NCBI GenBank assembly: GCA_015492245.1
Contig: WGFM01000023.1
Location: 1 to 64,000 of the forward strand
Source: Deltaproteobacteria bacterium
Lineage (GTDB): Bacteria; Desulfobacterota; GWC2-55-46; DRQE01
DNA: 64,000 bases
Direction of reading: 5' to 3'
The notes below the pieces were generated by a model. It saw only the letters and a list, made by a program, of their open reading frames with translations, searched no databases and had not been told where the DNA came from. Positions 8,881 to 22,158 of the stretch are shown piece by piece. How positions within the stretch are numbered: position 1 is the first letter of the stretch; every line of letters starts with the position of its first letter. The position numbers were made by a program, and so were the translations under genes.

Positions 8881-9903
8881 ATGGAATACTGGATAGGGTT
8901 TATCCTCTGTTCCCTGGCAATAGTCCTGAGTGGTTCACGCCTTTCCAGGTACGGAGACATTATAGCCGAGCTCAGTGGTATAGGAAGGGCATGGATAGGG
9001 CTTATACTGATGGCCAGTATAACATCACTGCCAGAGCTTGTAACAGGAATAAGCTCTGTTGCCATAGTTGGAACCGTGGATATTGCACTGGGAGATGTTC
9101 TGGGCTCCTGTGTGTACAACCTTTTCATACTGGCAATAATGGACATGATGAACGGCGAGCGCCCCATTTTCTACAGGGCATTCAGCGGACACCTTCTTTC
9201 CGCAGGTATAGGGGTGATACTCATAGGGATGGTGCTCATCTCCATGCTGCTTGCCCCGTACATGCCACAGATATGGCATGTGGGTCTTTATACACCGGTG
9301 ATAATTGTTACCTATATAATAGGTATAAGGGCTGTCTATTACTACGAAAGAAGCACCATCACAGATTATGTTGAGGAATCGGCAGTAAAATTGAAGGTTG
9401 AAAGGTTCTCGTACAGGGGTTTTACACTGAAAAGGGCCATAGTGCTGTACACAATGCACGCCCTGGTCATAGTGGTGGCAGCCACACTGCTTCCCTATGT
9501 GGCTGAAAAACTTGCAGTCCAGACAGGGCTTGGCGCCACAGTCATGGGAAGCATATTCGTTGCAATGACCACATCTCTTCCAGAGGTGGTGGTATCCATA
9601 GCTGCGGTCAAGATAGGGGCAAGGGATATGGCAATATCCAACATGCTCGGGAGCAACATGTTCAACATGGTTATAGTGGCAATAGATGACCTCTTCTACA
9701 CAAAGGGTGCCATCCTATCATATGTATCTGCCACACACCTTACCACAGGCCTTATGGCCATAATCATGACAGGTGTGGTTATAATAGGGCTTACCTATCC
9801 ACCGAAAAGAAAGATATTCAGGGTGGGTGTGGACTCCATAGTGCTTCTCCTGTTCTGGGCGTTCAGCATGTATATACTCTATATAACGAGAGGTGTTAAG
9901 TGA
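8881..9903 (+). CDS. Cation/Ca2+ exchanger (CaCA family) membrane protein
   Basis: About ten hydrophobic helices in two inverted halves, each with the family alpha-repeat: ASITSLPELVTG with GSCVYNLFILA in the first, TTSLPEVVVS with GSNMFNMVIVA in the second. Members exchange Na+ or H+ for Ca2+ across the inner membrane. The start at 8881 is chosen because GGGGAGGAG precedes it by eight bases; an ATG at 8860 would place that site inside the gene. It is first in the plus-strand osmoadaptation run and its stop overlaps the next start (GTGA). Ion specificity cannot be read; in this context Na+ or Ca2+ balance under osmotic stress is plausible. Confidence 0.87.
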   Translation: MEYWIGFILCSLAIVLSGSRLSRYGDIIAELSGIGRAWIGLILMASITSLPELVTGISSVAIVGTVDIALGDVLGSCVYNLFILAIMDMMNGERPIFYRAFSGHLLSAGIGVILIGMVLISMLLAPYMPQIWHVGLYTPVIIVTYIIGIRAVYYYERSTITDYVEESAVKLKVERFSYRGFTLKRAIVLYTMHALVIVVAATLLPYVAEKLAVQTGLGATVMGSIFVAMTTSLPEVVVSIAAVKIGARDMAISNMLGSNMFNMVIVAIDDLFYTKGAILSYVSATHLTTGLMAIIMTGVVIIGLTYPPKRKIFRVGVDSIVLLLFWAFSMYILYITRGVK

Positions 9904-10706
9904 AACCCATAGTGTTTACAGACCTTGACGGCACGCTGCTACATCCAGAAGACTATAGCTTCAGAGAGGCAGAGCCAGCCCTGAGGATGCTCAAAGAGAG
10001 AGGTATACCCATAGTTATGACCTCCAGCAAGACGAGAAAGGAGATAGAACTTTACAGAAGACGCCTGTCAATAGCCGACCCTTTCATATCAGAGAACGGC
10101 GGTGGCATATTCATTCCCGAAGGCTATTTCCCCTTCGAGGTAGAGGGGCGCTCGATCGATGGCTACAGGGTGATAGTGCTTGGAAGCCCCTACGAAGAGG
10201 TAAGAAGAGCACTGAAGGAGATAGCCGCCAGTGTTGGAGCGGAAATCAAGGGGTTTGGAGAGATGACAGTAAAAGAAGTGGCAGAGCTTACAGGACTTCC
10301 AGAAGAAGAGGCCGCCCTCTGTATGGAGAGAGACTTTGTGGAGCCTTTTGTTTGCACAAAAGATGGCCGAATATTAAATGAGGTGCTGAAAGAGATAGAA
10401 AGAAGGGGGCTTAAGTGGACAAGAGGCAGGTTCTACCACATAATGGGCAGCCATGACAAGGGCAGGGCCGTGAGGATACTTACAGCCTACTACAGAAGAC
10501 TTCACGGAGATGTGGTTACAATAGGGCTTGGTGATGGCCTGAACGATGAGCCAATGCTGGATGAGGTGGACATAGCCGTCTCTGTTGCAAAGAAGGATGG
10601 AAGCTATGAGCCATTTATGGTAGAGGGTATAATAAGGGCCCGTGGTATAGGACCGGCAGGCTGGAAGAGTGCTATAATAGACATAATGGAAAGGCTCCGG
10701 GGATAG
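9900..10706 (+). CDS. mpgP: Mannosyl-3-phosphoglycerate phosphatase-type HAD hydrolase (MPGP/GpgP)
   Basis: Removes phosphate from mannosyl- or glucosyl-3-phosphoglycerate to give the free compatible solute. HAD motif I is DLDGTLL (residues 8-14), motif II TSSKTR, and the motif III/IV end is HDKGRA...GLGDGLNDEPML. The C2-type cap and the 268-residue length fit the MPGP subfamily (COG3769). It begins at GTG in a GTGA overlap with the exchanger and lies 6 bp upstream of the glycosyltransferase, so the pair supplies both steps of a glycosylglycerate route. Whether the sugar is mannose or glucose is not visible; enzymes of this family often accept both. Confidence 0.85.
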   Translation: MKPIVFTDLDGTLLHPEDYSFREAEPALRMLKERGIPIVMTSSKTRKEIELYRRRLSIADPFISENGGGIFIPEGYFPFEVEGRSIDGYRVIVLGSPYEEVRRALKEIAASVGAEIKGFGEMTVKEVAELTGLPEEEAALCMERDFVEPFVCTKDGRILNEVLKEIERRGLKWTRGRFYHIMGSHDKGRAVRILTAYYRRLHGDVVTIGLGDGLNDEPMLDEVDIAVSVAKKDGSYEPFMVEGIIRARGIGPAGWKSAIIDIMERLRG

Positions 10707-10712
10707 ATAACC

Positions 10713-11984
10713 ATGGCAGTTGAATCAACGGTGCAGGATGAACACAGAGAGAATGCAGGGCAGTCCCTTGAGGGGATAGACACTGCCGACATAGTGGTGG
10801 GGATTGCAAGCTACAATAACGCCGGCACCATAACACATGTGGTAAGGGCGGTTGATGCAGGACTTGCAAAGTACTTTCCAAGGGAGAGGTGTGTAATAAT
10901 AAACTCTGATGGTGGCTCCACAGACCACACCCCCGAGCTTGTAAGGAACACCGACTTTGACCACCGCACCATATTCCTTTCCCACCCCATATATCCCATA
11001 CACCGCATAACCACCCCATACCATGGGGTGCCTGGCAAGGGCAGTGCCTTCAGGACCATATTCGAGCTTGCGGGCAGACTCAATGTAAAGGCGTGCTGCG
11101 TGGTGGATGCAGACCTTAGAAGTATAACCCCCGAGTGGATAGAACTCCTTCTGATACCTGTGCTCAAAGAGGGGTACGACTTTGTTGCCCCCTACTACAG
11201 CAGACACAAATATGACGGCAGTATAACCAACTCCATTATATACCCGGTTACCCGTGCACTCTACGGGAAGAAGATACGCCAGCCCATAGGAGGAGAGTTC
11301 GGCATGTCAGGTAGACTCATAGAGCACTACATATCTCTCAAGGAAGCCTGGGATACCGATGTGGCAAGATTCGGCATAGACATATGGATGACCACCGAGG
11401 CCATTGCCGGTGGGTTCAACCTCTGCCAGGCATATCTGGGCGCAAAGATACACGACCCGAAGGACCCTGGGGTGCACCTTACCGATATGTTTGTGCAGGT
11501 GGTGGGCTCGCTCATGAAACTTACCGAAAGACATTACCATGTGTGGAAGGATGTGAAAGACACGGAGGAGGTGCCCACCTTCGGGTTCAAGTTCTACACA
11601 GGCCTCGAACCGATAAGCGTCAATATAGACAGGATGATAGAGCTCTTCAGGCTCGGTGTGGAGAACCTGAAGGATCTGTGGGGGATGTTTCTGGTGGAGG
11701 ACCTTGTTGGAGAGATAGAAAGGATAGCCAGAAGCACAAAACATACATTCCGTTTTCCTGACGAGGTGTGGGCAAGGATAGTATACGAATACATTCTGGC
11801 ATTCCACCATAAAAAGCTCTCACTCGAGCATCTTTTGAAATCCATGGTGCCGCTCTACCATGGAAGGACGGCTTCGTTCTTTCTTGAGGTTGCAAGCCTT
11901 TCCAACGACGAGGCGGAGACGAAGGTGGAAAAACTTTGCCAGGAATTTGAAAGACAGAAGAAGTATCTGTCAGAACTATGGTAA
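10713..11984 (+). CDS. GT-A glycosyltransferase, glucosyl-3-phosphoglycerate/glucosylglycerate synthase type
   Basis: Probably joins an NDP-sugar to (3-phospho)glycerate, the first step of glucosylglycerate-type solute synthesis. A GT-A nucleotide-binding start (VVGIASYNN, NSDGGSTD), the metal-binding D132-A-D134 in VVDADLRS, and the later PIGGEFGMSG and FGIDIWMT segments characterise the GpgS/Ggs relatives. The 423-residue length fits the long forms with an alpha-helical C-terminal region. The phosphatase immediately upstream favours a phosphorylated intermediate; a direct glucosylglycerate synthase is the alternative. Followed by two membrane proteins of mechanosensitive type. Confidence 0.75.
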   Translation: MAVESTVQDEHRENAGQSLEGIDTADIVVGIASYNNAGTITHVVRAVDAGLAKYFPRERCVIINSDGGSTDHTPELVRNTDFDHRTIFLSHPIYPIHRITTPYHGVPGKGSAFRTIFELAGRLNVKACCVVDADLRSITPEWIELLLIPVLKEGYDFVAPYYSRHKYDGSITNSIIYPVTRALYGKKIRQPIGGEFGMSGRLIEHYISLKEAWDTDVARFGIDIWMTTEAIAGGFNLCQAYLGAKIHDPKDPGVHLTDMFVQVVGSLMKLTERHYHVWKDVKDTEEVPTFGFKFYTGLEPISVNIDRMIELFRLGVENLKDLWGMFLVEDLVGEIERIARSTKHTFRFPDEVWARIVYEYILAFHHKKLSLEHLLKSMVPLYHGRTASFFLEVASLSNDEAETKVEKLCQEFERQKKYLSELW

Positions 11985-12000
11985 ACAAAGGAGGTGTCAG

Positions 12001-12699
12001 ATGGAGTCTTTCTTTGAGGCGATAATAGGCCCCCTCAAGGCGTTCTTCATAAATACTGCCATGTTTATGCCTCATCTTATGGTGCTGGTTGTCATAATAT
12101 TTATAGGGTTTGTGGTGGCATGGCTCTCAAGGGTTGTAACCGTAAGGGTGCTCTCCGCCATAGGGTTTGATACCTGGAGTGCAAAGCTTGGGATAGCCTC
12201 TCTGCTGCAGAAAGGTGGGGTGGCAATGAGCCCGTCCCAGTTTTCCGCACAGTTTGTATACTGGTTTATTCTGATCGTCTTTGGCCTTGCTGCCTTGAGT
12301 GCCCTGGATATCGAGATTACTGACACCATAGTGTCAAGAACACTTGAGTATATACCACGGCTGATTTCTGCCGGGCTTTTGCTTATTATAGGCTGGCTCG
12401 TTGCAAGCTTTGTAGCAAGGGCAGTTCTTATAGCCTGTGTTAATGCAGGGGTTGTGTACGCAAGATTCATCTCCGATGGGGTGAAGATACTCATCCTCAT
12501 CCTTATATTTGCAATGGCATTCGAAGAGCTCCACATAGCCCCGGGAATGGTGAAGATAGCCTTCTCCATACTCTTTGGAGGTATAGTGCTTGCCCTTGCC
12601 CTTGCCTTTGGTCTTGGTGGAAGGGATGTGGCAAGGAAGATACTGGAGGATAGAATCCAGAAAGAGGAGAAAAAAGAGGACCAGATAGACCATCTTTAG
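12001..12699 (+). CDS. Conserved TM-helix mechanosensitive-channel-like membrane protein
   Basis: A 232-residue protein with about five hydrophobic helices. Two related segments (IGFVVAWLSRVVTVRVLSAI and IGWLVASFVARAVL, each followed by a hydrophilic stretch) resemble the TM-helix repeat of CmpX-like channels related to MscS. There is no soluble MscS beta domain; it ends in a charged tail (DRIQKEEKKEDQ). The start is fixed by AAAGGAGGTG upstream of the ATG. Gene order after the glycosyltransferase suggests a role in membrane tension or solute release, but function is inferred from family and context only. Confidence 0.75.
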   Translation: MESFFEAIIGPLKAFFINTAMFMPHLMVLVVIIFIGFVVAWLSRVVTVRVLSAIGFDTWSAKLGIASLLQKGGVAMSPSQFSAQFVYWFILIVFGLAALSALDIEITDTIVSRTLEYIPRLISAGLLLIIGWLVASFVARAVLIACVNAGVVYARFISDGVKILILILIFAMAFEELHIAPGMVKIAFSILFGGIVLALALAFGLGGRDVARKILEDRIQKEEKKEDQIDHL

Positions 12700-14876: not shown

Positions 14877-15530
14877 ATGGAACCTTTCAGATTCTACGAG
14901 TGCACAGCCCTTGTAAGGATGACAGGCAGAAGGGCCAGTGACCTTATAGAGTTTGCCGAGATAATCAAGAATGTGAGCCCCGCTGCCATCTTCCACCACA
15001 TGCACCAGTATTTTCTGAAGCCCCACATCATACTGCCAGAGTATCCCAACGACTTTGCCATATGGGCGGCAGATGCCCTGGAGGACAAGATTCTTGCCGA
15101 AAGGCTTGCAAACCTCAACCCATTCGAGTTCACCAATATAGAGGACATAAGAAGAGAGATACTGCGTATAATGACGGAACACCTGAAGGAGTATCCCGCA
15201 CCAAGGCCTGTCATAAAGGGCAAGGAGTTCTTCTTCAACGAGGGTATAACCCTCGTTGTGGAGACCACCTTTAGAGCAGATACCCTGGGGGAGTTCCTTG
15301 CAGCCCTGAGGGAGGTCCATACATCGAGTATATATTTTCACTTCTACGAGGCACGCCTCAGGCTCGGTAAAGAGCTCGATGACTTCAGCCGTTTCTTCGA
15401 AGACTGTGGAGACCCTAAATGCAGAGAGATCGCCTGCACCATACGCTCCCTCGATCCCTACATGTACACCACGGAGATGTTGAGAAGAAAGATCATAGAG
15501 ATAGTAGAGGAAAGGTGCGATGACGCTTGA
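14877..15530 (+). CDS. DUF5752 family protein, partner of TreT
   Basis: 217 residues, soluble, no signal. Function unknown; the family usually neighbours trehalose synthase genes. The protein looks like an internal duplication: residues about 1-105 and 115-215 share the order TG/TF-ADxLxEF, sxxSIxxHxx, NDFA or DDFS, a LxPf/lDPy turn and IRREI/LRRKI near the end. A His (FHHMHQ / YFHFYE) is kept in both halves. It overlaps treT by 11 bp, so the two are made together, and a regulatory or chaperone role for TreT is a reasonable inference. Confidence 0.75.
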   Translation: MEPFRFYECTALVRMTGRRASDLIEFAEIIKNVSPAAIFHHMHQYFLKPHIILPEYPNDFAIWAADALEDKILAERLANLNPFEFTNIEDIRREILRIMTEHLKEYPAPRPVIKGKEFFFNEGITLVVETTFRADTLGEFLAALREVHTSSIYFHFYEARLRLGKELDDFSRFFEDCGDPKCREIACTIRSLDPYMYTTEMLRRKIIEIVEERCDDA

Positions 15531-16750: not shown

Positions 16751-18043
16751 ATGCCCCATAAGACCTTGAGAAGGTTCTTCGCTGTAGCCTCTATGCTGGT
16801 GCTTGCAATAGCGCTTTTTGCCTGCAAGGCCCAGAAGGAGGGGACCCAGGAGGCCATAACCATAGTGTTCAAACACGGCAAGCTCGCGGGAGGGCCCGAG
16901 GCAATGAGGCTCATCCTTTCCCGCTTCGAGGCCGAAAACCCGGGCATAAAGGTCAAGGACGAGGTGCTCCCTGCCTCGACAGATGAGCAGCACCAGTTCT
17001 ATGTCATAAACCTTGAGGCCAGAAGCCAGGAGTTCGATGTGCTCTCGATGGATGTCATCTGGGTGGAGGAGTTCGCAAGGGCAGGCTGGCTGCGGCCTCT
17101 GGATGAGGTCTTCCCACCCGAGGAAAGAAGAGACTTTTTCCATGGCCCCCTCTCTGCTGTAACCTACAGGGACAATGTGTATGCCATCCCATGGTATATA
17201 GATGCAGGGCTTCTGTATTACAGGAAAGACCTTCTGGAGAGATACTCCCTGCCAGTGCCCCGCACATGGGAGGAGCTCGTCTCAACTGCAAGGGCCATCA
17301 TGAAAGAAGAGAGGGGCCTTTACGGGTTTATCTGGCAGGGCAAACAATACGAGGGGCTTGTCTGCAATGTTATGGAGTATATGTGGAGTAGAGGCGGCGG
17401 GCTTATAGGGGAGGATGGCAGATTCAATGCCCTGAAAAAGGAGAATGTGGAGGCCCTAAGGTTCATGTATGACCTCATACACACCTACAGGGTAAGCCCC
17501 CCTCTTGTAACCACCGCTGTTGAGGAGACCACCCGCCATATATTCGGCTCGGGCAGGGCCATCTTCATGCGCAACTGGCCCTATGCATGGAACATATTCG
17601 AACGAGAGGGCTCGCCAGTAAAGGGCAAGGTGGGTGTTACGGTGCTTCCTGCCTTCAGTGGTTACAGATCCGCTTCAACACTTGGTGGATGGCAGCTGGG
17701 GGTCAACAGGTACTCGAAACATCCCGAGGCAGCAGAAAAGCTGGTTAGATACCTCACCTCCTACAGGGTGCAGAAAGAGATGTCCATAAAGATGGGCTAC
17801 AGGCCACCACGACGAAGTCTCTACAGGGATGAAGAATTGAGGAAGGTCCAGCCCTTCATTGTAAGGCTCTACGATGTGTTCGAACATGCAAGACCACGGC
17901 CAGAAAGCCCCTTCTACATGATGATAACCCAGGTGCTCCAGCCCGAGTTCAGCGCAGCCATAACGGGGCTGAAGAGCCCCGAGGAGGCACTGCGGTCCAT
18001 ACAGCGCCAGGTTGAGCATATACTCACGATGGAGGAGAGATGA
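16751..18043 (+). CDS. ABC transporter sugar-binding lipoprotein (MalE/ThuE-like)
   Basis: Captures the sugar outside the inner membrane. Lipobox ALFAC puts the lipid on Cys25. The mature part is a cluster D extracellular binding protein: FKHGKLAGGPEAM, a first lobe ending around VLSMDVIWVEEFA, and second-lobe features such as GGWQLGVNRYSKHPEAAEKLVRYL written over about residues 310-340. It is the first gene of a complete importer and its stop overlaps the permease start (ATGA). Trehalose or maltose is the likely cargo given treT upstream and otsAB downstream, but specificity cannot be read. Confidence 0.88.
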   Translation: MPHKTLRRFFAVASMLVLAIALFACKAQKEGTQEAITIVFKHGKLAGGPEAMRLILSRFEAENPGIKVKDEVLPASTDEQHQFYVINLEARSQEFDVLSMDVIWVEEFARAGWLRPLDEVFPPEERRDFFHGPLSAVTYRDNVYAIPWYIDAGLLYYRKDLLERYSLPVPRTWEELVSTARAIMKEERGLYGFIWQGKQYEGLVCNVMEYMWSRGGGLIGEDGRFNALKKENVEALRFMYDLIHTYRVSPPLVTTAVEETTRHIFGSGRAIFMRNWPYAWNIFEREGSPVKGKVGVTVLPAFSGYRSASTLGGWQLGVNRYSKHPEAAEKLVRYLTSYRVQKEMSIKMGYRPPRRSLYRDEELRKVQPFIVRLYDVFEHARPRPESPFYMMITQVLQPEFSAAITGLKSPEEALRSIQRQVEHILTMEER

Positions 18044-18879
18044 GACAGAAAGGAGAGGGCTATGGGTTCATTGTGCCTGCAGCGCTGGTTCTTCTCTTTG
18101 TAACCATATATCCCCTTGTGTATGTGTTCTGGCTGAGCCTTCACCGGAAACACCTTATATTCCAGATTTCGAGGTTCAGCGGGCTTGAAAACTACCTCTT
18201 TCTCCTTCAGGATGAACGCTTCCTGAGGGCACTGTGGAATACCATCTATTTTACCGTGGTATCCGTGGGGCTTGAGCTTACACTGGGCCTTCTCTTTGCC
18301 CTCGTGCTTCAGGGGGCATTTGCTACCAGGGGTGTGGTAAGGGCCCTCGTGCTCCTGCCATGGGCACTGCCAACGGTGGTCTCTGCAAGGATGTGGGAGT
18401 GGATGTACAATACAGATTTCGGCATCATAAACTATCTTCTCGGTGTGGATGTAAACTGGCTCGGCAGCCCCTTCTGGGCACTCAATGCAGCAATAGTCAT
18501 GGATGTATGGAAGACCACACCCTTTGTGGCACTGATCCTCATGGCAGGCCTCCAGGTAATCCCCCGTGAGCTCTATCAGTCTGCCATGGTGGATGGAGCA
18601 GGCAGCCTCTACATATTCTTGAGGATAACTCTACCCATGCTCAAACCGGTGATACTCGTGGCCCTTCTTTTCAGAACCATAGATGCCTTCCGTGTGTTCG
18701 ATGCCATATATGTGCTTACAGGAGGAGGGCCTGCCAACACAACGGAGACCCTTTCCATATATGCGTACAAGGTTCTCTTCCAGACCCTTCAGTTCGGCTA
18801 TGGCTCTGCAATAGCCATGGTGGTGTTCCTCTGTGTGGGGTTTATAAGTGTGTTCTATGTGAGGCTTTTGAGTAGATGA
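18040..18879 (+). CDS. ABC sugar permease, MalF-like
   Basis: One of the two inner-membrane channel subunits of the importer. Six hydrophobic helices in 279 residues; the ATPase-coupling EAA loop is seen as ELYQSAMVDGAGSLYIFLRI about residue 178, ending in the ITLPMLKP turn. It lacks the large periplasmic P2 loop of E. coli MalF, as in most members. It begins and ends in ATGA overlaps with its neighbours. Confidence 0.92.
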   Translation: MRQKGEGYGFIVPAALVLLFVTIYPLVYVFWLSLHRKHLIFQISRFSGLENYLFLLQDERFLRALWNTIYFTVVSVGLELTLGLLFALVLQGAFATRGVVRALVLLPWALPTVVSARMWEWMYNTDFGIINYLLGVDVNWLGSPFWALNAAIVMDVWKTTPFVALILMAGLQVIPRELYQSAMVDGAGSLYIFLRITLPMLKPVILVALLFRTIDAFRVFDAIYVLTGGGPANTTETLSIYAYKVLFQTLQFGYGSAIAMVVFLCVGFISVFYVRLLSR

Positions 18880-19700
18880 GTGATGGGGCTAAAAGATTGC
18901 TCAACGGGTTTATACTTCTGGCGGTAATACTATGGTCTGTTGCACCCTTTGTGTGGCAGGTGATAACCTCTTTCAAGCCCTCTACAGAGCTTGCCACCCT
19001 TCCCCCGCTTCTGCCCACACACCCAACACTCGAGAATTACATGAGTGTGTTCTCTGACAGACCTTTTGGGAGGATCATCCTTAACAGTCTCGTTGTGGCA
19101 TCTTTTACCACGATTTTTTCTCTTCTCACAGGTTCTCTCGCAGGGTTCGCCCTTTCTGTGCTGAGGCCCAGGGGTGGGTATATCTTTCTGGGGTTCGTCC
19201 TTACCGTATCCATGTTTCCCCCCATATCCACGGTGAGCCCCCTTTACATAATAATGAGGGAGCTTGGCCTGAGGGACACCCTCTTTGCCCTTGTCGTTAC
19301 ATACACCACATTCAGCCTGCCCCTTACCATATGGATACTTACAAACTTCTTTCGTTCCATACCCAGGGAGCTCTATCTATCGGCACGGGTTGACGGATGC
19401 AGCAATTTTCAGATATTTTATAGGATATTCCTGCCAGTGGCAGGCCCGGGACTTTTTGCCACGGCCATACTGGTCTTCATATTCGCATGGAACGAGTTTC
19501 TCTTTGCCCTTACCTTTACCTCCACGGTGAGGGCAAGGACAGTGCCCGTGGAGATAGCCCTTTTTCCAGGTGTTCACGAGATGCCATGGGCAGAGATTGC
19601 AGCGGCCTCTGTGATAGTTACGGTGCCGGTGGTGCTACTGGTCTTTCTGTTTCAGAAGAGGATCATCGAGGGGCTTACAGCAGGAGCCATAAAGAGATGA
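18876..19700 (+). CDS. ABC sugar permease, MalG-like
   Basis: Second channel subunit, six helices in 274 residues. Its EAA loop is ELYLSARVDGCSNFQIFYRI with the following FLPVAGPG, about residue 165, and the C-terminal half has the FIFAWNEFLFALTFT helix typical of MalG relatives. Coupled by an ATGA overlap to the ATPase gene. Together with the preceding permease it forms the heterodimeric pore. Confidence 0.93.
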   Translation: MSDGAKRLLNGFILLAVILWSVAPFVWQVITSFKPSTELATLPPLLPTHPTLENYMSVFSDRPFGRIILNSLVVASFTTIFSLLTGSLAGFALSVLRPRGGYIFLGFVLTVSMFPPISTVSPLYIIMRELGLRDTLFALVVTYTTFSLPLTIWILTNFFRSIPRELYLSARVDGCSNFQIFYRIFLPVAGPGLFATAILVFIFAWNEFLFALTFTSTVRARTVPVEIALFPGVHEMPWAEIAAASVIVTVPVVLLVFLFQKRIIEGLTAGAIKR

Positions 19701-20758
19701 CGAGGGTAGAGCTAAAGGGGATAACCAAGAGGTTCAACACTACAGAGGTGATAAAGGGGGTGGACCTCCTCATAGAGAGGGGGGAGTTTTTCACCTTGCT
19801 TGGGCCCAGTGGTTGTGGGAAGTCCACACTCTTGAACATAGTGGCAGGCCTTGAAGAACCCACCACTGGCAGCATATACTTCGATGACAGGGATGTAACC
19901 GCCCTTTCCCCACCAAAGAGGGATGTGGCCATGGTCTTCCAGACCTACGCCCTCTATCCCCACATGAGTGTATTCGAAAACATCGCCTTTCCACTACGGG
20001 TAAGGAAAGAGGGGCAGGATACAGTTGAAAGGGAGGTCAGAAGGGTTGCAGCCCTTGTGGGTCTCGAGAGGCATCTTTCGAAAAGGCCCTCACAGCTTTC
20101 AGGCGGAGAGCGCCAGAGGGTGGCCCTTGCCAGGGCCATAGTAAGGAGGCCAAGGGTCTTTCTTATGGATGAACCCTTGAGCAACCTGGATGCGCGCCTG
20201 AGGATAATCATGAGGACAGAACTCAAAAGACTCCACAGGGAACTCGCCATAACCACCATATATGTAACCCATGATCAGGAAGAGGCGATGAGCCTTTCCG
20301 ACAGGGTGGCGGTCTTCCATGCCGGCACCATCCAGCAGTGTGCCCCTGCGATGGAGCTCTACCGCAGGCCTGCAAACCTATTTGTTGCCCGTTTCATAGG
20401 CAGCCCACCGATGAACATAGTGGAGGCAAAGGTGCTGTCCCAGAGGCCTGCTGTCATAGATATGTGCGGCATGACCATCGAACTGCCTGCCACTGTGGTG
20501 GCTGAAGAGGGTGTGCTTGCCGGCATAAGGCCAGAGGATGTTGAACTCTCCACCAGAGCTGCCCCTGCCATGGCAGAAGCGGTGGTGGATGTGGCAGAGC
20601 CTGTGGGGGTGTATCAACTCCTTGAGATTGTGTATAATGGTTTAAGGCTCATGGTGAGAACAGAGATGGAAGACATAAGGGCAGGCGACAGGGTATACTT
20701 CAGGCCCATAGCCGAAAGGATACACCTCTTCAACCCTGTAACAGAGAGGAGACTATGA
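19697..20758 (+). CDS. ABC transporter ATPase, MalK/UgpC-like
   Basis: Energises the sugar importer. Walker A GPSGCGKST (36-44), Q-loop VFQTYALYPH, signature LSGGERQ, Walker B FLMDEPLSNLD and the switch His in YVTHDQEEA are all intact. A C-terminal TOBE/regulatory domain of about 110 residues (GIRPEDVEL...) follows, as in MalK. The start is the ATG of the ATGA overlap; the frame is open further upstream but that would run into the permease. MalK-type ATPases can serve several sugar systems, so this one may energise unlinked permeases too. Confidence 0.93.
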   Translation: MTRVELKGITKRFNTTEVIKGVDLLIERGEFFTLLGPSGCGKSTLLNIVAGLEEPTTGSIYFDDRDVTALSPPKRDVAMVFQTYALYPHMSVFENIAFPLRVRKEGQDTVEREVRRVAALVGLERHLSKRPSQLSGGERQRVALARAIVRRPRVFLMDEPLSNLDARLRIIMRTELKRLHRELAITTIYVTHDQEEAMSLSDRVAVFHAGTIQQCAPAMELYRRPANLFVARFIGSPPMNIVEAKVLSQRPAVIDMCGMTIELPATVVAEEGVLAGIRPEDVELSTRAAPAMAEAVVDVAEPVGVYQLLEIVYNGLRLMVRTEMEDIRAGDRVYFRPIAERIHLFNPVTERRL

Positions 20759-22158
20759 TGGCTTCCAGGAGGAAGTCTTCTCTTATAGTGGTATCCAACA
20801 GGGAACCCTATACGATAAAGAGGGACGGAAGGCTTGAGAAGACCGTTGGAGGGCTCGTCTCAGCCCTTGACCCTGTAATGTGTTCTGCAAGGGGTGTGTG
20901 GATAGCCTCAACGAGGGCACGAAGGGGCATGAAGGTGGAAGTGCCACCAGAGGCTCCATCCTATACGATGAGGCTTGTGCCAGTGAGCACAAAGGACTTC
21001 GAGGACTACTACGATGGATACTCCAACAGCTTTCTATGGCCCCTCTGCCATATAACCCTGGACAGGGTCTATCTTCGCGATAGATACTGGGAGAGCTACA
21101 AGAGGGTAAACCAGCTCTTTGCAGAGGCCGTGGTGGAAGAGGCGGATGGCAGAAAGATGTTCGTGTGGCTTCAGGACTATCACCTGGCACTCTGTGCAGA
21201 CTATATAAAGGAGAAGAACCCGGGCCTCAAGCTCTCTCTTTTCTGGCACATACCCTGGCCCCCCTACGATGTGTTCAGGGCATGCCCCCACAGAAGGGAG
21301 GTCTTAAGAGGGCTTCTTGCAAACGACCTTCTGGGTTTCCAGATAGAGGCATTCACAAGAAACTTCCTAAGATGCGTGGAACTGGAACTGAAGGACGAAG
21401 TAAGGATAGAAGGCGATATGATCTACACAGAGAGGGGAAAGACAAGGGTGAGCGCTTTTCCCATAAGTATAGACTATGGCTGGTTTGAAGAGGCAGCCAC
21501 CTCCAGCAGGGCCGAGAGATTTTTGCGAAGATTCAAGAGAGAGAGAAACCTCGAGGGCAGGCTCATAGGGTTGAGCGTGGACAGGCTCGATTACACCAAG
21601 GGCATAATAAGAGGACTTTCAGCCCTTGAGCTCTTCTTCGAGAAGTATCCCGAATTCAAAAGACGGTTCAGCTTCATCCAGATTGCCGTGCCAACCAGGG
21701 TCTCAGAGACATATCTGGGCTACATGGAGACGGTTAGAAGAAAGGTATACACCATAAACAGCCGTTTTGCCACCGGCGACTGGCGCCCCATCGAGTATAT
21801 AGAGAAGAAGTTCACCCACCAGGAGCTTGCAGGCCTCTACAGGGGTGCAGACCTTCTGATGATAAGCAGCGTCTATGACGGTATGAACCTCGTTGCAAAG
21901 GAATACATCGCCTCACAGGTAGACCTTACGGGTATTGTGCTGGTAAGCCTTTTTGCAGGGGTGTCAGAGGATGTGCCAGGGGTTATAACCATAAACCCCT
22001 ATGCAACAGAAAACTATGCAGATACCATAAAGATGGCGCTCGAGATAGATGACAGAGAGAAACAGAGACTCATCAAAAAGGCACGCGGTTACATAAGGAG
22101 AAAGGATATATACAGGTGGGTCAGCGGGATACTCAGGGAGATAAGAAGGATAAGATGA
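20755..22158 (+). CDS. otsA: Trehalose-6-phosphate synthase (OtsA family)
   Basis: Transfers glucose from an NDP-glucose to glucose-6-phosphate. GT20 landmarks: VVSNREPY (about 13-20), GGLVSALDP (33-41), WLQDYHLAL, HIPWPPYDVFRACP, LSVDRLDYTKG and SSVYDGMNLVAKEY. The 467-residue length equals that of E. coli OtsA. ATGATG at the start overlaps the ATPase stop. Its presence next to treT gives two separate trehalose routes in one operon. Donor preference (UDP, ADP or GDP-glucose) is not predictable from sequence. Confidence 0.93.
   Translation: MMASRRKSSLIVVSNREPYTIKRDGRLEKTVGGLVSALDPVMCSARGVWIASTRARRGMKVEVPPEAPSYTMRLVPVSTKDFEDYYDGYSNSFLWPLCHITLDRVYLRDRYWESYKRVNQLFAEAVVEEADGRKMFVWLQDYHLALCADYIKEKNPGLKLSLFWHIPWPPYDVFRACPHRREVLRGLLANDLLGFQIEAFTRNFLRCVELELKDEVRIEGDMIYTERGKTRVSAFPISIDYGWFEEAATSSRAERFLRRFKRERNLEGRLIGLSVDRLDYTKGIIRGLSALELFFEKYPEFKRRFSFIQIAVPTRVSETYLGYMETVRRKVYTINSRFATGDWRPIEYIEKKFTHQELAGLYRGADLLMISSVYDGMNLVAKEYIASQVDLTGIVLVSLFAGVSEDVPGVITINPYATENYADTIKMALEIDDREKQRLIKKARGYIRRKDIYRWVSGILREIRRIR

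Follow-up and report, generated by a model that had tools for sequence, protein, structure and literature searches.

Genes at the locus

The window, by which we mean the whole stretch of 64,000 nucleotides that was analysed, carries the genes listed in Table 1. The gene of interest had been called DUF5752 in a first-pass annotation made from the sequence alone, and the call holds: its product matches Pfam DUF5752 (PF19027) with 219 bits, against a cut-off of 23, and covers positions 2–208 of the 208 in the profile. It is the single DUF5752 match in the source genome, which likewise has a single TreT match. Just 2 bp separate its start from the stop of an upstream gene for a mechanosensitive channel in which all three MscS domains are matched by Pfam – a neighbor that the first-pass annotation missed – and the two are separate genes, unfused. 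On the other side the open reading frame overlaps that of treT, as had been noted, by 11 bp. Window TreT matches the PDB chains 6zj4 (3.6e-123) and 2x6q, the TreT of P. horikoshii (3.5e-102).

Among the remaining genes, the first three of the ABC transporter have NCBIfam matches of MalE/UgpA/GlcU type, all below cut-off, while its ATPase (from about 19697) was named by eye. No phosphatase domain was found by Pfam in the GT20 gene. The upstream solute block comprises a mannosyl-3-phosphoglycerate phosphatase (TIGR02461, 9.8e-77), a GT2 of mannosyl/glucosyl-glycerate type (NF010496 at 8e-11 and PF21969 at 3.3e-06 are listed for the block) and another channel-like protein, in which MS_channel_1st_1 helices are matched (PF05552, 3.1e-11). 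As a separate observation, the GT2 lies immediately 5' of the MS_channel_1st_1 protein (10713–12699), making a second solute-synthase/channel pair; this pair was seen again near other DUF5752 loci (e.g. L056, L085, L097, L113 and L121).

Table 1. Features of the window around the DUF5752 gene.
Feature	Position	Strand	Details
Upstream solute block: mannosyl-3-phosphoglycerate phosphatase, GT2, second channel-like protein	9900..12699	+	
MscS-type mechanosensitive channel, 347 aa	13831..14874	+	PF00924 1.2e-20, PF21082 1.3e-13, PF21088 1.5e-07
DUF5752 / OrfY-like two-lobed protein	14877..15530	+	ATG start, 217 aa; PF19027 5.7e-65
Lobe 1 (about residues 2-108)	14880..15200	+	conserved H41, N58-D59-F60, W63, E75, R92
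Lobe 2 (about residues 114-216)	15216..15524	+	conserved F118, H155, R160, R162, D169-F170, D193
treT, trehalose glycosyltransferring synthase (GT4), 404 aa	15520..16734	+	PF21269 7.2e-56
Sugar ABC transporter: substrate-binding protein, two permeases, ATPase	16751..20758	+	
GT20 glycosyltransferase (OtsA / glucosylglycerol-phosphate synthase type)	20755..22158	+	PF00982 1.5e-112

DUF5752 consists of two related lobes

The first-pass annotation proposed that the protein is internally duplicated, and this is borne out: the halves are homologous far above shuffled controls and show the same order of elements in a structural model. The halves of the window protein share 27% identity, and single-sequence Smith-Waterman alignment of residues 1–111 to residues 112–217 scored 85, a value reached in none of 1000 shuffles (mean 25.8, sd 4.3). 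Profile-profile comparison with hhalign (46 rows) gave a probability of 99.7, an E of 9e-25 and a score of 134.7, compared to a mean of 11.6 and a maximum of 20.8 for 100 column-shuffled controls. The AlphaFold2 model (pLDDT 90.4, pTM 0.82) contains the order strand-H-H-H-H-H twice. By profile and by model, the fold is repeated as opposed to single, and the halves are an ancient duplication. When lobe 1 was folded alone its N-terminal strand was lost (pLDDT 78), which suggests that lobe 2 may be required for the strand to form.

Most of the matching elements that had been listed are present in both halves: an AD-type turn followed by EF (ASDLIEF and ADTLGEF), an acidic turn (NDFA at 58–61, DDFS at 168–171) and the ends IRREI and LRRKI. 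The exception is the Ser-Ile-x-x-His step, which stands in lobe 2 (SIYFH, ending at His155) but not in lobe 1, where Ala takes the place of Ser (AIFHH, ending at His41); SIFHH, with Ser before Ile, is found in relatives such as L053. The proposed conservation of His and acidic residues in both halves is clear: across 22 diverse rows His41, His155, Phe60, Trp63 and Asp169 are invariant, while 21 rows retain Asn58 and 21 retain Asp59. The lowest internal pLDDT of the model falls in the interhelix loops around residues 41–60.

DUF5752 is tightly linked to treT

Linkage to treT was counted in two samples of genomes. From the window's phylum (297 genomes; a Syntrophaceae record belongs to the same phylum) 118 DUF5752 places were obtained; omission of eight partial ones (one of which, in G281, is paired) left 110 full-length genes in 104 genomes. 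From the Nitrospirota (198 genomes; the phylum of L085, a Nitrospirae record) 77 places were obtained, 13 partial ones were omitted, and 64 full-length genes in 60 genomes remained. In the window's phylum 109 of the 110 DUF5752 genes share the strand of treT and lie immediately 5' of it. In Nitrospirota DUF5752 adjoins treT in 47 of 64, is separated from it by 1.8–2.3 kb in 16 and meets a contig end in one. The gap in L158, the one whose single-gene content was checked by Pfam, holds a GH13 enzyme, which from its size and Pfam match we take to be of TreS type. Every genome with a full-length DUF5752 also has treT (104/104 and 60/60), and treT is next downstream in 79 of 80 named loci, these being partly the same loci as in the phylum sample. 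The tight genetic tie that had been proposed is thus strongly supported. The argument is based on these counts: Fisher tests ignore relatedness and are not relied upon, and a further sample, which covered the window's own phylum and the same places again, is not counted as independent.

Close relatives carrying treT but lacking DUF5752 were not found: among 12 genomes of the window's class (the source genome included) seven have both genes and five have neither. In the two larger samples some genomes have treT unaccompanied by DUF5752, namely 15 from the window's phylum (including G281, where a partial DUF5752 lies beside a weak TreT match) and nine from Nitrospirota; treT without DUF5752 is also seen as second copies. 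The reverse is seen at two loci. In L152, DUF5752 has no treT; the gene upstream is presumably of TreY type, judging from its size and GH13 Pfam match, and only a decayed MscS fragment lies nearby. In L094, DUF5752 directly precedes a GT20 gene, again with no treT.

Two further observations concern such loci. The 758-aa protein at L094:1573-3846 has GT20 at residues 281–748; its N-terminal part is unmatched and by eye resembles a membrane sensor. A DUF5752 match with three stop codons (G006:C52:189-635, L153) comes from a genome in which TreT has no match; since it is located at a contig start, loss of DUF5752 is not certain.

No DUF5752 relatives were found in the viral contigs or plasmids searched. 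Archaeal context comes from a S. acidocaldarius control, in which both the DUF5752 and TreT families are present (without their positions), and from the placement of PDB TreT chains in the tree below; treT function has been demonstrated in S. acidocaldarius (PMC7688234). A T. maritima control has TreT and no DUF5752 match.

DUF5752-linked TreTs form their own branch

TreTs encoded beside DUF5752 are separated from the others by one split (32 paired vs. 13 unpaired rows, support 99/96) in a tree that leaves out three long rows (L042, L043 and L057). Trees with more rows and long branches gave lower support for this split, and the first tree (48 rows) needs two changes because the long branch L042 joins L057. 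Six TreT positions are specific to the branch: F170, L263, P274, L279, P282 and R354 (47 paired and 10 unpaired rows). Of the solved chains, the Thermoproteus TreT is placed with the paired TreTs and that of P. horikoshii with the unpaired (98/95); the former is in line with OrfY, a DUF5752 protein known from Thermoproteus. The crystals of the 6zj4 series, a TreT of the paired branch, contain TreT chains only: DUF5752 is thus not needed for the TreT fold. We take 6zj4 to be the enzyme of Thermoproteus uzoniensis. A TreT structure from that species is named in a review, the available text of which gives no PDB code (PMC11046441).

In L039, L040 and L041 (+ strand protein), TreT was seen to form the C-terminal part of proteins of 1317–1352 aa without DUF5752; the N-terminal part of these proteins is GT2-like by eye.

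MscS genes adjoin DUF5752 or are fused to it at some loci

In 26 of 80 named loci an MscS gene is situated immediately upstream of DUF5752 (<200 bp, same strand). The other 54 have no MscS directly upstream; the sequence upstream extends for 1.1 kb or more in 69 of the 80 loci, and for less in 11. Elsewhere the directly upstream gene encodes a TPSP fusion (L057, L060 and L069), a trehalose phosphatase (L064 and L071) or, in L058, a GH13 enzyme, presumably of TreZ type from its size and Pfam match. An M23 peptidase gene was also observed in this position (L056, L090 and L111).

A search for fusions covered ten places at which the open frame is exceptionally long; of these, seven, each in a different genome, are true MscS::DUF5752 fusions: proteins of 461–471 aa in which the MscS beta domain (PF00924, 7e-07 to 6e-14) is followed by a full DUF5752, with a treT open reading frame immediately downstream in every case. 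The C-terminal domain of MscS, MS_channel_3rd, was found in none of the seven. Their N-termini match a profile of the neighboring MscS proteins from position 1 to 238–242 of 339, whereas most unfused MscS neighbors match it through to its end; in one fusion (L172) the N-terminal part matches known YnaI/MscS chains. In the fused chains DUF5752 stands in for the C-terminal domain of MscS. The fusions form one branch (83/66) that spans both samples, and thus two phyla, which suggests a single fusion event and subsequent retention. One genome (L174) has a separate full-length MscS gene in addition to the fusion.

Single lobes occur in unrelated proteins of signalling type

A single DUF5752-like lobe ends proteins that combine a HAD phosphatase with a DUF87/HerA-like ATPase (L161–L165 and L171, with a relative in L034), apparently an uncharacterised architecture; another is located upstream of a PPDK_N domain (L032 and L033, the latter with a receiver domain). 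Profiles of these lobes score 55–69 against both lobes of DUF5752, compared to shuffled maxima of 17–20, and the pattern H...DFxxW is retained in both kinds of protein. Their matches are near or below the Pfam cut-off and they are thus largely unannotated. The lobe predates the paired form or, at the least, has a wider distribution than it, and the single-lobe relatives represent a wider domain superfamily to be annotated.

OrfY and the transcription-factor label

The sole convincing solved relative of DUF5752, by sequence and by fold, is PDB 4cso, titled as OrfY of Thermoproteus tenax, which shares with the window protein both the PF19027 family and the fold of the whole chain. The sequence match extends over the whole length (2.4e-29); the model matches with a Foldseek E of 1.5e-14 and a TM of 0.76, and in a VIA comparison restricted to Foldseek's own ranked chains with Z 21.0, rmsd 3.3 and 206 of 217 residues (next-best Z 4.2). 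Lobe 1 alone likewise has OrfY as its only confident match (Foldseek E 1.9e-03; Z 11.5, rmsd 2.3, 97 residues).

OrfY was deposited as a transcription factor, unlike our reading of the window protein as an accessory of TreT. That DUF5752 is a transcription factor is highly improbable: nothing other than the depositors' molecule name speaks for it, and it is not supported by fold, charge or fusion context. Foldseek gave no confident PDB match to the model besides OrfY (reported purely as an absence), Pfam found no DNA-binding domain in the window protein, the family is acidic (pI 4.5–6.8 over 22 rows), and in the MscS fusions DUF5752 is part of a membrane channel. Our literature search found no published function for DUF5752 or for OrfY/4cso (searches of OrfY with trehalose or archaea included) and no paper that we recognised as describing this DUF5752-TreT-MscS module; in the available text of the T. 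tenax genome paper there is no treT or OrfY context.

Proposed coupling of trehalose synthesis to an osmotic channel

A role as a regulator or subunit of TreT, as suggested by the first-pass annotation, is plausible. The MscS neighbor, the fusions, the treT-less loci and the single lobes indicate, though, that DUF5752 is more than a TreT-only subunit. Our preferred reading, which we consider evenly balanced between true and false, is that it is an accessory or regulatory module of TreT that couples trehalose synthesis to an MscS osmotic release channel. DUF5752/OrfY would be a dedicated cytoplasmic accessory module for one branch of TreT, most likely binding and regulating the enzyme and linking it to the MscS channel encoded upstream. 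Membrane tension would be sensed by the channel, on the cytoplasmic side of which DUF5752 would dock, as it would on TreT; trehalose would be made under osmotic stress, and channel opening would throttle its synthesis. Binding to TreT and MscS, gating, the direction of control and the signal for DUF5752 are parts that we infer. The linkage to treT, the shared inheritance with one branch of TreT, the frequent adjacency of MscS and the fusion, all of them observed like the duplication itself, speak for the module, as does the T. tenax operon msc-gt-tpsp described below; the treT-less loci L152 and L094, the 54 of 80 loci without MscS upstream, the probable origin of the fusions in one event and the crystals of a paired-branch TreT with TreT chains only count against it.

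The main rival is sugar sensing. If sugars or sugar nucleotides are bound by each lobe via the conserved His, Asp-Phe and Trp/Arg, the bound ligand could feedback-regulate TreT and gate MscS, much as in a channel with an appended ligand-binding domain, and the pseudo-twofold pair of lobes may suit twofold-symmetric trehalose. The invariance or near-invariance of His41/His155, Asp59/Asp169 and Trp63, the retention of H...DFxxW in single lobes, the low pLDDT of the loops around residues 41–60 and the persistence of DUF5752 beside sugar enzymes that are not TreT (L152 and L094) are all consistent with such a sensor. The same residues may nevertheless be structural and the symmetry argument is merely suggestive: we regard the idea as doubtful taken alone, but it could be combined with the linker reading. 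The invariant His and Asp of each lobe might instead be catalytic, making DUF5752 – always found among sugar-metabolism genes – an enzyme acting on a substrate or product of TreT. This is very unlikely, since the lobe is joined to unrelated enzymes, more in the fashion of a regulatory module, and since similar motifs are kept in both lobes after duplication.

A simpler possibility is that DUF5752 is a plain subunit or stability factor of TreT with no functional link to MscS, both being present merely because they reside in osmotic-stress islands. Linkage to treT is indeed much tighter than linkage to MscS, and the fusions could stem from one deletion event. Retention of the fused form in seven genomes of two phyla, the precision of the domain swap, and the presence of DUF5752 without TreT in L152 and L094 nonetheless make this unlikely.

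The coupling of synthesis to channel could take a specific form, which we put forward tentatively as a possibility somewhat short of even: a family of MscS channels in which a TreT-associated, possibly sugar-sensing DUF5752 forms or caps the cytoplasmic vestibule, such that valve and synthase are physically coupled, either through separate subunits (as would apply in the window) or through one MscS::DUF5752 chain. If true, osmolyte synthesis would be wired directly to a tension-gated channel, and not solely by way of gene expression.

Comparison with known systems

Cyclic-nucleotide-gated channels of MscS type join an MscS pore to a cytoplasmic regulatory domain. The MscS::DUF5752 fusions differ from these in that the added domain is another one, stands in for the C-terminal domain of MscS and has treT directly downstream. 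The TreTs of P. horikoshii and T. maritima are GT4 trehalose synthases homologous to that of the window, but the P. horikoshii enzyme groups with TreTs that lack DUF5752, unlike window TreT.

A close parallel to the arrangement in the window is the T. tenax operon msc-gt-tpsp, described in the available text of PMC3634074 as encoding an MscS-like channel, a GT4 protein and the trehalose synthase TPSP; in both, an MscS-like channel, a GT4 protein and a trehalose enzyme are found in one operon. There the GT4 partner activates TPSP by complex formation, no DUF5752 being described in that text, and the authors propose a release valve: trehalose is synthesized under stress and released through the channel (PMC3634074). 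In the window, by contrast, trehalose synthase is represented by TreT, and DUF5752 is encoded between it and the channel; a complex of the T. tenax type is not matched, the operon having TreT and a phosphatase-free GT20 and, by Pfam, no TPSP fusion. The valve-and-synthase model for T. tenax, as given in the available text, has no linker (PMC3634074); for the TreT systems of other lineages, DUF5752 is a candidate for one.
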